Shown here: positions 23,757 through 29,017 of the stretch, in pieces
How positions within the stretch are numbered: the first letter of the stretch is position 1
How the letters are laid out: every line of letters begins with the position of its first letter
From: Pandoraea pulmonicola
GTDB lineage: Bacteria; Pseudomonadota; Gammaproteobacteria; Burkholderiales; Burkholderiaceae
Length of the DNA stretch: 64,000 nt
Assembly: GCF_000815105.2 (NCBI RefSeq)
Contig: NZ_CP010310.2
Coordinates: forward strand, 5,766,001-5,830,000
Reading direction: 5' to 3'
Notes under the pieces: generated by a model
Database searches by the model: none
What the model saw: only the letters and a program-made list of their open reading frames with translations
Told to the model about the DNA's origin: nothing
Made by a program: the position numbers and the translations under genes

Positions 23757-25721
23757 TCAGGCTGCGTGCTGGTCGCCGGCATCGCCGGCGTCAGTCGTTT
23801 CCCCTGACGCGCGACGTCGTCCGAGTCCCTTCTTGAGATGGATCATCAGCAACGAGATGGCAGCGGGCGTCACACCAGAGATGCGGGATGCCTGGCCAAG
23901 CGTCTCGGGACGCTGCGCATTGAGTTTCTGACGCACTTCGATCGACAGCCCCCTGACATCGTTGTAATCGATGCTGGTAGGCAACACCGTGTTCTCGTTG
24001 GCTTCCTTGCGGGAAATTTCGTCGGCCTGACGGTCGATATAACCTTGATACTTGACCGCGATCTCGATCTGCTCGCGAATCTGAATGGCCTGCAGCGGAT
24101 CATCCGACAGCACGCCTTCGGGAGCAAGTCGCCCGCCCTGCACTGCCATGAGCGCGTCGTACCCGACTTCGGGGCGACGCAACAAATCCGCCAACGAGTA
24201 CTCGTGATCGATCGCCTTGCCCAGCAGCGGCACCGCGTCCTCCGCCGGGAAGGTTTTCGGATTCACCCACGTCGATTTGAGACGTTCTGTTTCACGTGAA
24301 ACAACGTCGCGTTTGCGGCAAAACGCGTCCCAACGAATGTCGTCCACGACACCGAGTTCGCGACCGATTTCGGTCAGACGCATATCGGCATTGTCCTCGC
24401 GAAGCGACAGACGGTATTCGGCGCGGCTGGTGAACATGCGATACGGTTCGGACACACCACGAGTGATCAGATCATCGACGAGCACACCGAGATAGGCTTG
24501 ATCACGGCGCGGGCACCATGCCTCGCGACCTTGCACTTGCAGTGCGGCGTTGATTCCGGCCAACAGCCCTTGGGCGGCGGCTTCTTCGTAGCCGGTCGTG
24601 CCATTGATCTGGCCGGCGAAGAAGAGTCCCGAGATGACGCGGGTTTCGAGCGAACTGCGCAGACCGCGCGGATCGAAGTAGTCGTATTCGATGGCGTAGC
24701 CCGGGCGCAGGATATAGGCGTTCTCCATGCCCCTCATCGAGCGGACCAGTTCAAGCTGGACGTCGAAAGGCAGGCTGGTGGAGATTCCGTTCGGGTAGAA
24801 CTCGTTGGTTGTGAGCCCTTCCGGTTCGAGGTAGATCTGATGCGACGTCTTGTCGGCGAAGCGATGAATCTTGTCCTCGATCGACGGGCAATAGCGCGGA
24901 CCGACGCCCTCGATCACGCCGGTGTACATCGGCGAGCGGTCGAGGCCGGCGCGGATGATATCGTGGGTACGCTCGTTGGTGTGCGTCACCCAGCACGGCA
25001 CTTGGCGGGGATGCTGCTCAGGCCGGCCGAGGAACGAGAAAACGGGCACCGGATCGAGGTCCCCGGGCTGCTCTTCCAGCACGGAGAAGTCGATGGAGCG
25101 ACCATCGATACGCGGTGGTGTACCGGTTTTCAAGCGACCTTGCGGCAACTTCAACTCTTTGAGGCGCGCGGACAGGCTGACGGCAGCGGGGTCCCCCGCA
25201 CGGCCACCGACATAGTTATTGAGGCCAACGTGGATCTTGCCGTCGAGGAACGTTCCAGCGGTCAGCACGACGGCACGTGCGCGGAAGCGCAGGCCTACTT
25301 GAGTGACGGCACCGACGACGCGCTCCCCTTCGACGATCAGATCTTCGACGGCTTGCTGGAAGAGCCAGAGATTCGGCTGATTCTCGAGGCGATGACGAAT
25401 CGCCTGTTTATACAGAATACGGTCGGCCTGGGCGCGGGTGGCGCGGACGGCCGGGCCTTTGGACGAATTCAGGATACGAAACTGGATGCCGCCCTCGTCG
25501 GTGGCAGCGGCCATCGCGCCACCCAGCGCGTCCACCTCTTTCACGAGATGGCCTTTGCCGATCCCGCCGATGGAGGGATTGCAGCTCATCTGGCCGAGCG
25601 TCTCGATGTTATGGGTAAGCAGGAGGGTTTTACAGCCCATACGGGCCGAGGCGAGCGCAGCCTCGGTGCCGGCATGGCCACCACCCACTACGATCACATC
25701 GAACTCGGTCGGATAAAGCAT
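23757..25721 (-). CDS. mnmG: tRNA uridine 5-carboxymethylaminomethyl modification enzyme MnmG
   Basis: MnmG (GidA) with MnmE installs cmnm5 or nm5 groups on wobble uridine. The 654-residue protein begins with the FAD-binding [21 protein letters not shown], then the conserved [22 protein letters not shown] and, near the middle, [16 protein letters not shown]. The C-terminus is the MnmE/tRNA-binding helical domain. The [10 protein letters not shown] segment is encoded by a perfect parS site (24288-24303). It is the first gene left of the putative origin. Confidence 0.98.
24288..24303. promoter_or_regulatory. Perfect parS site inside mnmG (TGTTTCACGTGAAACA)
   Basis: This is an exact 16-bp match to the canonical parS palindrome, lying within the mnmG reading frame where it encodes VSRET. 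Confidence 0.9.
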
Positions 25722-25811: not shown

Positions 25812-25825
25812 GTTTCACGTGGAAC
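25812..25825. promoter_or_regulatory. parS-like site GTTTCACGTGGAAC
   Basis: One base away from the perfect palindrome GTTTCACGTGAAAC. It lies 91 bp upstream of mnmG. No hairpin follows it. Confidence 0.8.
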
Positions 25826-25942
25826 GTGGTGGGATTCCGTGATTTTAGTGATGTGTTGATGGGATGAGGGCGGTGTTGCGTCTCAGGTGGGTTTGAAGAC
25901 CTTCGGTACAATAGCGCCTGCACCCTCTCCCGCTTCCGGGCC

Positions 25943-26012
25943 GCAGAGATTACCGGCACCCTGGCTAGGCTCCACCTGAAAGTCGCTACGCCAGGGCACC
26001 GGCAATCTCTGC
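25943..26012 (-). other. Hairpin of inverted unit A
   Basis: Arms 25943-25965 and 25990-26012 pair over 23 bp around a 24-nt loop holding GACTTTCAGGTGGA (minus strand). As minus-strand RNA every position pairs, three as G-U. Confidence 0.7.
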
Positions 26013-26052
26013 CAAGCAAATGTCCGAAATGGTGGAGGAGAAGCGGCGCTCT

Positions 26053-26066
26053 GTTTCACGTGAAAC
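26053..26066. promoter_or_regulatory. Perfect parS site GTTTCACGTGAAAC
   Basis: Exact 14-bp parS palindrome. On the minus strand it precedes hairpin A by about 40 bp. Confidence 0.9.
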
Positions 26067-26155
26067 CGGGTGACTTCGCTTGGCGTGGAGGTACTTTCAA
26101 TCGTTGACAACCACGTCCCGCTATCCCGCTCTCGCTCTTCTTGCACCTCCGGGCA

Positions 26156-26225
26156 GCGGAGATCGACCATGCCCCGCCTAGGCTCCACCTGAAAGTCGCT
26201 ACGGCAGGGCACGGCCGATCTCCGC
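26156..26225 (-). other. Hairpin of inverted unit B
   Basis: Arms 26156-26178 and 26203-26225 pair over 23 bp around the same 24-nt loop type. As minus-strand RNA all 23 positions pair, three as G-U; on the plus strand those three are A-C mismatches. Several base pairs are changed on both sides compared with hairpin A. Confidence 0.7.
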
Positions 26226-26267
26226 CAAGCGAGCTTCCGAACGCCGGTATATCTAACTCACCACGAT

Positions 26268-26281
26268 GTTTCACGTGGAAC
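26268..26281. promoter_or_regulatory. parS-like site GTTTCACGTGGAAC
   Basis: One base from the perfect palindrome, same orientation as the site at 25812. It precedes hairpin B on the minus strand by about 42 bp. Confidence 0.8.
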
Positions 26282-26737
26282 GTCGCACATTTCGAGATGG
26301 ATTCAGTAAGCCTGGCCTGCGACGAGAAATTCAGTACCAAATACTCCGCCGGACGATGATCGCAAACAACATTACTGTTACACCGGCCCACCGCATAACT
26401 TCAAATACCTTTCACGCCAGATCGCAAACTTTGTCCATGTGCACCGCCGCACACGCTGTTACCCCCGAACTACATACGAAGGAAACTCGGCTGCCTTTCT
26501 CAAAGCCCCGGATTCCAAGCTCATCCCCGACCCAATCTTGTGCGAGTTTCGTCAGGTCCGGATACTACAAAGCAACTCCGGCCCAGCCAAGCCCTGACCG
26601 GCAAAGAATCCCCATCCGCCAACACGCTCCCCTTCCTTAACCTGACGCCCCACGCAAAACTCTCAGGTGAGTCGGCGGGGAAACCAATCTTTCTACTCGT
26701 TGTAGCCGAGGTTCCAGTTTCGAAAGTCCACAAGACT

Positions 26738-26751
26738 ATTCGACGTGAAAT
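26738..26751. promoter_or_regulatory. Decayed parS site ATTCGACGTGAAAT
   Basis: It matches 11 of 14 bases of the array's own parS version and sits exactly at the expected position of the first unit. It is probably weak or inactive. Confidence 0.45.
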
Positions 26752-26925
26752 CACCAAACAAGCACCGCAGCCCTTCGGGAATTCGACGGCGGAGACCGGC
26801 GGTGCCCTGACGGAGTGACTTTCAGGTGGAGCGCAGTCAGGGTGCCGCCGGGCTCCGCTGCCCGGATGCTTGCTAGCACCTCAAGCCAATGTAGCGGGAT
26901 GTGGTGGAGAAAACCCATCCTCAGC

Positions 26926-26939
26926 GTTCCACGTGAAAC
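26926..26939. promoter_or_regulatory. parS-like site GTTCCACGTGAAAC
   Basis: One base from the perfect palindrome. The off-consensus C lies on the opposite side from the sites at 25812 and 26268, reflecting the reversed unit orientation. Confidence 0.8.
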
Positions 26940-27114
26940 CACCCAACAAGCGCCGCAGCCCCTTCGGGCGTTCGACGGCGGAGACCGGTGGTGCCCTGAC
27001 GGAGTGACTTTCAGGTGGAACGCAGTCAGGGTGCCGCCGGGCTCCGCTGCCCGGATGCTTGCTAGCACCTCAAGCCAATGTAGCGGGATGTGGTGGAGAA
27101 AACCCATCCTCAGC

Positions 27115-27128
27115 GTTCCACGTGAAAC
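27115..27128. promoter_or_regulatory. parS-like site GTTCCACGTGAAAC
   Basis: Same sequence, 189 bp after the previous copy. Confidence 0.8.
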
Positions 27129-27303
27129 CACCCAACAAGCGCCGCAGCCCCTTCGGGCATTCGACGGCGGAGACCGGTGGTGCCCTGACGGAGTGACTTT
27201 CAGGTGGAACGCAGTCAGGGTGCCGCCGGGCTCCGCTGCCCGGATGCTTGCCAGCACCACAAGCCAATGTAGCGGGATGTGGTGGAGAAAACCCGTCCTC
27301 AAC

Positions 27304-27317
27304 GTTCCACGTGAAAC
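27304..27317. promoter_or_regulatory. parS-like site GTTCCACGTGAAAC
   Basis: Same sequence, 189 bp after the previous copy. Confidence 0.8.
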
Positions 27318-27492
27318 CCCCAAACAAGCGCCGCAGCCGTTTCGGGCATTCGACGACGGAGACCGGCGGTGCCCTGACGGAGTGACTTTCAGGTGGAACG
27401 CAGTCAGGGTGCCGCCGAGCTCCGCTGCCCGGATGCTTGCCAGCACCACAAGCCAATGTAGCGGGATGTGGTGGAGAAAACCCGTCCTCAAC

Positions 27493-27506
27493 GTTCCACG
27501 TGAAAC
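27493..27506. promoter_or_regulatory. parS-like site GTTCCACGTGAAAC
   Basis: Same sequence, 189 bp after the previous copy. Confidence 0.8.
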
Positions 27507-27681
27507 CCCCAAACAAGCGCCGCAGCCGTTTCGGGCATTCGACGGCGGAGACCGGCGGTGCCCTGACGGAGTGACTTTCAGGTGGAACGCAGTCAGGGTG
27601 CCGCCGGGCTCCGCTGCCCGGATGCTTGCCAGCACCACAAGCCAATGTAGCGGGATGTGGTGGAGAAAACCCATCCTCAAC

Positions 27682-27695
27682 GTTCCACGTGAAAC
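27682..27695. promoter_or_regulatory. parS-like site GTTCCACGTGAAAC (truncated last unit)
   Basis: Same sequence, 189 bp after the previous copy. Homology to the unit stops near 27740, before the hairpin, so this site has no stem-loop. Confidence 0.8.
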
Positions 27696-27913
27696 CCCCA
27701 AACAAGCGCCGCAGCCGTTTCGGGCATTCGACAGCGGAGCCCGGGCATCTGCAAATGCAGAAAAGCTATTGCACCGATAGGTTTAGACAACAACCCAAAA
27801 AACCGATCACCGCCAAGAAACGTCAACGCGAACGAAAACCAACATCAAAACGCCAAAGCCTTCCAGCAACGAGCACGTTCGCGCATGCGGAAAAAATCGA
27901 GAATCCGTTCGTG

Positions 27914-27922
27914 TTATCCACA
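27914..27922 (+). promoter_or_regulatory. DnaA box TTATCCACA
   Basis: Perfect match to the consensus. Confidence 0.75.
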
Positions 27923-28270: not shown

Positions 28271-29017
28271 TTATGCAGCCTTCTTCGCCAGCCCCAGGTA
28301 TGTCTCGATGACCTTCGGGTTGCTGGCCAACTCCTGTGCCGGACCTTCCAGCGCGAGCTCGCCCGTCTCAATCACGTAGCCGTAATCGGCCACCTGCAAC
28401 GCCGCACGGGCATTCTGCTCGATCAGCAGCGTTGCCACCCCCGTCTTACGCAAGTCGTTGATGATATGGAAGATTTCCTTCACGATCAGCGGTGCGAGGC
28501 CGAGACTCGGTTCGTCGAGCATCAACAACTGCGGCTTGGCCATCAACGCACGGCCCACCGCCAGCATCTGACGCTCACCGCCCGAAAGTGTACCTGCCTG
28601 CTGCGTGCGACGCTCCTTGAGCCGCGGAAACAGCTCGTAGACCACTTCCATCTGGTCCAGGAAATTCTTCTCCCCGGCTCGCTTGCGACGGTACGCACCC
28701 AGCAACAGGTTGTCCTCAACCGTCATCGTCGAGAACAACTCGCGCTTCTCCGGCACCAGACACATACCGCGCGCCACGCGCGCTTCGATCGTCAGCGCCG
28801 ACATCTCGTGACCGAGATACGCCACGCTTCCCTTGCTCGAACCGTTGTGCGGCAACGCCCCCATGATCGCGTTGAGCATGCTCGACTTGCCCGCCCCGTT
28901 CGGACCAATCACCGTGACGATCTGGCCCGCTTCCACACGCAGATGTGCACCGTGCAGCGCCTCGACTTTGCCGTACGCGACGGCGAGGTCCTTGACCTCC
29001 AGAATTGCGTCCGCCAT
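28271..29017 (-). CDS. livF: Branched-chain amino acid ABC transporter ATPase LivF
   Basis: This 248-residue ABC ATPase has Walker A (GPNGAGKSS), signature LSGGERQMLAVGRALM and Walker B LLMLDEPSLGLAP, with the H-loop region missing the usual histidine as is common in LivF. The ATG at 29017 overlaps the livMG stop (TGATG) and has a GGAGG site; a GTG one codon earlier is less likely. It ends the livH-livMG-livF operon. Confidence 0.95.
   Translation of the reverse strand: MADAILEVKDLAVAYGKVEALHGAHLRVEAGQIVTVIGPNGAGKSSMLNAIMGALPHNGSSKGSVAYLGHEMSALTIEARVARGMCLVPEKRELFSTMTVEDNLLLGAYRRKRAGEKNFLDQMEVVYELFPRLKERRTQQAGTLSGGERQMLAVGRALMAKPQLLMLDEPSLGLAPLIVKEIFHIINDLRKTGVATLLIEQNARAALQVADYGYVIETGELALEGPAQELASNPKVIETYLGLAKKAA

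Follow-up and report, generated by a model that had tools for sequence, protein, structure and literature searches.

The window analysed here, a stretch of 64,000 nucleotides from Pandoraea pulmonicola, contains an intergenic region in which parS-pattern sites stand among long hairpins, raising the question of whether these hairpins form part of the segregation site or represent an element of another kind lodged within it. The region holds eight such sites against seven hairpins (Table 1), the first bases of the sites lying at 25812, 26053, 26268, 26926, 27115, 27304, 27493 and 27682. Each unit of the tandem array comprises one hairpin and one parS-pattern site, the final copy being partial. 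A ninth site, at 24289-24302, falls within the mnmG coding sequence, and most of the Pandoraea parS arrays compared likewise include a site separated from its neighbour by about 1520 nt. ParA and ParB domains are found further left of mnmG in the window. In addition, DnaA-box-like 9-mers at 27914 and 27966 probably mark oriC beside the array.

Table 1. Features of the hairpin/parS region, in window coordinates (WC, Watson-Crick)
Feature	Position	Strand	Description
mnmG	23757-25721	minus	One border of the hairpin/parS stretch
Intergenic parS-pattern sites (n=8)	25812-27695		Pattern GTTYCACGTGRAAC
Hairpin A	25943-26012	minus	Loop GTAGCGACTTTCAGGTGGAGCCTA; 20/23 WC pairs, 3 G-T; model match
Hairpin B	26156-26225	minus	Loop identical to A; 20/23 WC pairs, 3 G-T; model match
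Tandem array	26774-27829	plus	Unit spacing 189 nt; direct repeat family D1
Tandem-array hairpin 1	26789-26858	plus	20/23 WC pairs
Tandem-array hairpin 2	26978-27047	plus	19/23 WC pairs
Tandem-array hairpin 3	27167-27236	plus	19/23 WC pairs
Tandem-array hairpin 4	27356-27425	plus	18/23 WC pairs, including two A-C pairs
Tandem-array hairpin 5	27545-27614	plus	20/23 WC pairs
ABC-transporter ATPase gene	28271-29017	minus	Other border of the hairpin/parS stretch

All seven 70-nt units consist of a 23-nt arm, a 24-nt loop containing GACTTTCAGGTGGA and a second 23-nt arm. An earlier note on this DNA had placed the hairpins at these positions, and its description holds: 18-20 of 23 positions form Watson-Crick pairs, the 14-mer is present in every loop, and the arm sequences quoted as examples are found in the DNA. 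Its claim that the 14-mer is invariant stands within the window and fails across the genus, where the loop varies. Similarly, the non-Watson-Crick pairs of units A and B, three in each, are all G-T in the loop sense as it had stated, while the plus-strand units, which have an A-G mismatch at pair 7 in common and among which 27356-27425 includes two A-C pairs, depart from this pattern in ways previously unmentioned. A search for the 23-24-23 register with at least 19 Watson-Crick pairs returned six matches within 25.8-27.7 kb, none in the remaining window and none in three mononucleotide shuffles. Four of the seven units were folded, the loop strand giving -51.9, -55.0, -51.6 and -46.1 kcal/mol as RNA and the complement -39.4, -40.4, -39.8 and -37.5 kcal/mol; as DNA the same units gave -24.3, -25.7, -27.7 and -23.5 against -20.7, -19.9, -21.7 and -20.8. 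In these four units the advantage of the loop strand over its complement thus amounts to about 9-15 kcal/mol for the RNA folds and about 3-6 for the DNA folds.

The hairpins of the window are members of a dispersed family. In the 5.87-Mb source genome there are 12 exact occurrences of the loop motif and a further 5 that differ from it by one mismatch (control, 0), all 17 being loops of long stems whose sequence differs widely between places. Model R1 finds 19 matches in this genome at E≤0.01, 12 of them beyond the window's seven, including one at 2228897 in which the full stem is not formed. The same model and threshold detect the family in 27 of 32 Pandoraea genomes, each of which has 1-25 matches. 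Searched with stricter filters, the 299 genomes of the bacterial family yielded 27 positives with R1, all Pandoraea, and 28 with the broader model R2; the extra genome, G083, gave the sole match outside the genus below E=0.01 (E=1.1e-4), a long palindrome with another loop that was not counted. For the five remaining Pandoraea genomes, R2 gave no match up to a threshold of E≤5. An exact 18-mer was present in 38 stretches of genome contigs, 13 from Pandoraea; the 25 others, reaching at most 22.3 bits with R2 (E=0.014), were rejected as members, and a near-match search of plasmid records gave no match. As far as sampled, the family thus appears restricted to a clade of Pandoraea. Its dispersed stretches number 61 and fall into nine clusters of orthologous places, the largest of which was divided in two by eye.

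This dispersal bears directly on the relation between hairpin and parS. The earlier note had tied a hairpin to each parS, a tie contradicted by the 12 further source-genome matches, by the absence of the parS pattern from all 48 dispersed hairpin stretches scanned, and by Pandoraea arrays in which hairpins are lacking or reduced to remnants. Specifically, the arrays of G015, G016, G020 and G022, with 7-9 parS sites, are without a hairpin match under either model (E≤5 for R1, E≤1 for R2), and those of G005 and G013, with 11 and 8 sites, contain only weak remnants of 11-28 bits. It is improbable, therefore, that the hairpin forms part of the Pandoraea centromere and acts with ParB at parS, although hairpins and parS-pattern sites do alternate in the arrays of 21 genomes, the source genome included, some of these arrays (for example in G003, G012, G024 and G026) holding decayed units. 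A parS-specific function was rejected on the same grounds. Moreover, the hairpin loop is no parS itself: it resembles half a site (TTTCAGGTGGA), with a variable middle base and without the palindrome. Since they belong to a repeat family that is dispersed and in which one strand, not both, is kept foldable, the hairpins are probably passengers in the parS array and no part of the segregation site.

The repeat unit spans about 100-112 nt. Its 23-bp stem varies in sequence and is followed inwards by 3-nt internal loops, an inner helix of 2 bp and the apical loop, whose edges are fixed (GACTT...TGGA) and whose middle varies. A change from C-G to T-A is seen in the inner helix, and the G-A and A-G beside it could form a tandem sheared motif. 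Some copies extend the stem with an outer helix, GGGC/GCCC, at least 5 pairs being present in 81 of 152 copies, where shuffled flanks average 43.5. A second subtype, with a stem like ATCGGG...GGGGGCC and an often lengthened loop, stands next to the main subtype at the cyo place and at the 4.33-Mb place, the two being inverted relative to each other.

The stems vary by paired changes. In alignment A1, comprising 15 source-genome copies, 22 of 23 pairs are changed on both sides and 97.1% of cells are paired, values reached by 0 of 500 shuffles on each measure. Next to the cyo genes, a place aligned from 16 genomes as 15 distinct rows has two-sided changes at 10 of 25 pairs and is 96.0% paired; no shuffle among 500 reached it on four measures and 82 did so on further pair types, and pair 8-66 is non-standard in 11 of 15 rows, mostly A-G. 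A joint alignment of two other places, whose covariation is partly the difference between the two, has 13 pairs changed on both sides and 97.6% paired, with 7 of 500 shuffles matching it on further pair types. Because stems differ between these two places in nearly the same genomes, the copies look inherited in place. Across 142 copies aligned by the model, which leans to structure, 660 cells are changed on both sides against 141 after shuffling, and 22 pairs carry such changes, a number reached by 3 of 500 shuffles. Covariation across model-found homologues, proposed earlier as the check on the hairpin, is therefore strong by these shuffle-based measures, even within one orthologous place.

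Only one strand is kept foldable. Pair counts were made on 147 distinct hairpins from 11 places, drawn from 83 dispersed and 79 array matches by removing duplicates, with the register set by Watson-Crick pairs alone and two degenerate source copies at 2.2288 Mb left out. Read in the loop sense, these hairpins comprise 2892 Watson-Crick, 380 G-T, 13 A-C and 96 other pairs, the copies having been found by a folding model that nevertheless also recovered decayed ones. G-T outnumbers A-C at every one of the 11 places, of which three are represented by a single copy, whereas re-dealing the 3' letters 200 times gave a mean of 421 G-T against 206 A-C and a ratio never above 2.3-fold. At four places, differences per letter in the flanks were 1.43, 0.38, 0.61 and 0.73 for A/G and 0.99, 0.41, 0.35 and 0.46 for C/T, and in the hairpins 0.65, 0.12, 0.20 and 0.12 for A/G and 0.77, 0.19, 0.34 and 0.31 for C/T, so that C/T exceeds A/G in the hairpins at all four places, and in the flanks not at three, with near-equality at the fourth. 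Since the flanks lack a matching substitution bias, a mutational strand bias fails to account for the surplus of G-T. Together, the ratio of 380 to 13, the paired changes in place and the lack of a matching bias in the flanks support the view that the loop-sense strand, and not its complement, is held foldable as RNA or single-stranded DNA, in agreement with the selection for folding in one orientation suggested in the earlier note. A cruciform would give no G-T bias and was rejected.

Dispersed copies occupy intergenic positions, frequently in inverted pairs or tandem runs. None of the 83 matches overlaps a called gene, and by flanking genes 35 are convergent, 46 codirectional, one divergent and one undetermined, as counted with a home-made gene caller and with orthologues taken separately. 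In our own reading of the gene map, the loop strand is antisense at five of seven codirectional places and sense at two, namely the L054 group and, with exceptions, the L221 group. Among 11 full-length dispersed source copies, six run with the replication fork and five against it, relative to an inferred origin and terminus. Hairpin polarity is fixed by neither adjacent transcription nor replication. Neighbouring copies on opposite strands take the order (-,+) in 23 of 24 cases and (+,-) in one, orthologues again counted separately. The 20 flanking and other proteins scanned revealed no function common to the neighbours. An intrinsic terminator was rejected: of 158 copies examined for TTTT within 12 nt after the stem, none had it on the loop strand and one had it on the other. 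At one copy (L203, about 1870-1936), repeated AGGGGGT-like units lie on the loop strand immediately beside the hairpin.

At two places the source genome carries a hairpin that the other genomes examined lack: one stretch has it among 26 orthologous ones at the first place and one among 30 at the second, counts that set aside four weaker matches for the first and genomes without the locus for the second. Relative to G017, 250 bp of the source genome is unmatched at the first place, and 473 bp in the source genome corresponds to 175 bp at the second. Moreover, the copy upstream of dusB and the 478-kb copy have 112 nt in common at 92.9% identity. In the comparison with G017, neither a target duplication nor an exact element end was seen at the two places, and their surroundings are variable, so that the presence and absence may also result from loss or local rearrangement. 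An IS110-type transposase gene (L048 4158-5411; source 478657-479910) ends about 40 nt from the 478-kb hairpin; this being the only one of 38 stretches compared in which the transposase adjoins the hairpin (one relative of the protein lies further off in L230), the gene was set aside.

Our preferred reading, to which we give a probability of about one half, is that the seven hairpins are copies of a REP-like mobile hairpin which is confined to the genus and travels as a passenger in the parS array. The repeat would spread as a non-autonomous element, and an enzyme recognising the hairpin would handle it as single-stranded DNA of one polarity, as with REP/BIME. The candidate for this enzyme is RAYT, the sole Y1-type transposase found in the source genome. 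Copies would have fallen into the parS array beside oriC and then multiplied with parS by tandem duplication. A RAYT-type gene (PF01797) is present in 32 of 32 Pandoraea genomes, that of the source scoring 80.3 against NCBIfam NF047646, just over the cut-off of 80. No hairpin was detected near RAYT in 30 stretches (about 1.5 kb on each side, covering 30 of 34 PF01797 matches) or in one wider source stretch, and co-occurrence is uninformative because RAYT is present in the five hairpin-less genomes too. The strongly reduced Pandoraea genome G018 (1.2 Mb) still has its one RAYT-type gene, a 245-aa frame, besides one parS-pattern site, and lacks the hairpin, which suggests a RAYT role apart from the repeat.

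The likeness to known systems is close in some respects and fails in others. REP/BIME with TnpAREP/RAYT, as described in PMC8266576, comprise short intergenic palindromes with inverted pairs and tandem copies of which one strand is recognised, and their RAYT-type gene has a counterpart in every Pandoraea genome examined. According to the same account, the substrate of the E. coli TnpAREP is REP in single-stranded form, the inverse sequence not being acted on; such handling would keep one strand foldable. The G-T bias agrees with binding or cleavage of one polarity of single-stranded DNA, and RNA would give the same bias. In contrast, the GTAG-type foot 5' of the REP palindrome is almost absent (3 of 158 Pandoraea copies have GTAG/GGAG no more than 8 nt from the stem), REP copies reach hundreds per genome against 1-25 matches per positive Pandoraea genome, REP copies lie beside the RAYT gene where none was found beside the Pandoraea RAYT, and the Pandoraea repeat has a long 23-bp stem of free sequence with a large conserved loop. 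As foot, copy number and RAYT adjacency fail, a fair reading is that the repeat works like a REP, and we do not claim that it is one. REPINs, in the account of PMC3116915, likewise are mobile hairpins of about 100 nt with reported compensatory changes between arms, but conserve the outer REP ends around a varying spacer, whereas the Pandoraea repeat conserves the apical loop and varies the stem. Stem-loop families of bacterial genomes (PMC2267715) also are repeated intergenic sequences with a common fold; that survey covers 40 genomes, naming Bordetella and Neisseria species among the beta-proteobacteria, and no family with the Pandoraea loop was seen in it, its family tables aside. The best reading is thus of a genus-restricted variant of REP-like stem-loop repeats, for which the literature searched (REP, RAYT, REPIN, parS hairpins, Pandoraea, Burkholderia) gave no earlier description. 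A purely selfish repeat need not keep its stems paired in place across species, which counts against this reading.

The main competitor, possible if tentative, is a structured non-coding RNA family, in which a loop-sense transcript would present the conserved loop edges on a free stem to a protein or RNA partner. G-U in place of A-C, the stable fold, the paired changes in place and the conserved loop edges all favour it, and judged by the folding data it would do equally well as the REP-like single-stranded DNA reading. It is opposed by array copies that decay in several genomes and by the absence of Rfam matches over the hairpins; the seven matches found in 24.5-29.5 kb at E≤5 all lie elsewhere, a known Rfam family being rejected. 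Moreover, codirectional neighbours have the loop strand as their sense strand at some places but as their antisense strand at a larger number, and a transcript would therefore need its own promoter. The same orientation counts weigh on Rho-dependent termination, whereby genes whose 3' end faces a copy would read a C-rich complement and then the hairpin. Copies do lie at gene 3' ends, with only one of 83 between divergent genes, and the loop strand of the flanks of dispersed matches is G-rich (37% G, 25% C), but the codirectional places are split, five antisense and two sense, and the conserved loop and the choice of the loop strand as the foldable one are left unexplained, making this account doubtful at best. 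Template switching, which can repair stems as quasi-palindromes and so make paired changes without selection, might, together with strand-biased mutation leaving G-T, dispense with selection altogether; this is highly improbable given a polarity independent of replication and a C/T excess confined largely to the hairpins. Finally, the repeat may be a cellular element and not a parasite, each copy showing the same loop edges, on a stem of free sequence, to one partner as RNA or single-stranded DNA; it would be selected at about ten orthologous places and multiplied beside oriC, so that in most of the genus the centromere array would be compounded of parS and hairpin. We regard this as unlikely, somewhat less so than termination by Rho.

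The REP-like reading and its RNA counterpart share a wider interest, the repeat being a clear example from nature of foldability maintained on one strand only, at many sites that are not linked. Through it, whether REP-like repeats live as single-stranded DNA or as RNA becomes testable, with the hairpin loop serving as an exact bait for a protein that reads the hairpin. It also indicates that conserved-looking structure within a centromere array can be a passenger. Two further arrangements were observed in other genomes. In another species, tandem hairpins without parS (L235, 1812-2283) are spaced at 189-190 nt, compared with 189 nt at 26789-27614 of the window. In G028, a different hairpin with a 20-nt stem and a 20-nt loop (GTACGTGTGTTCTGTCGGGA) occurs as two inverted copies about 800 nt apart (L150, 461-520 and 1277-1336), near the parS sites of this Pandoraea genome, which is without the main hairpin.
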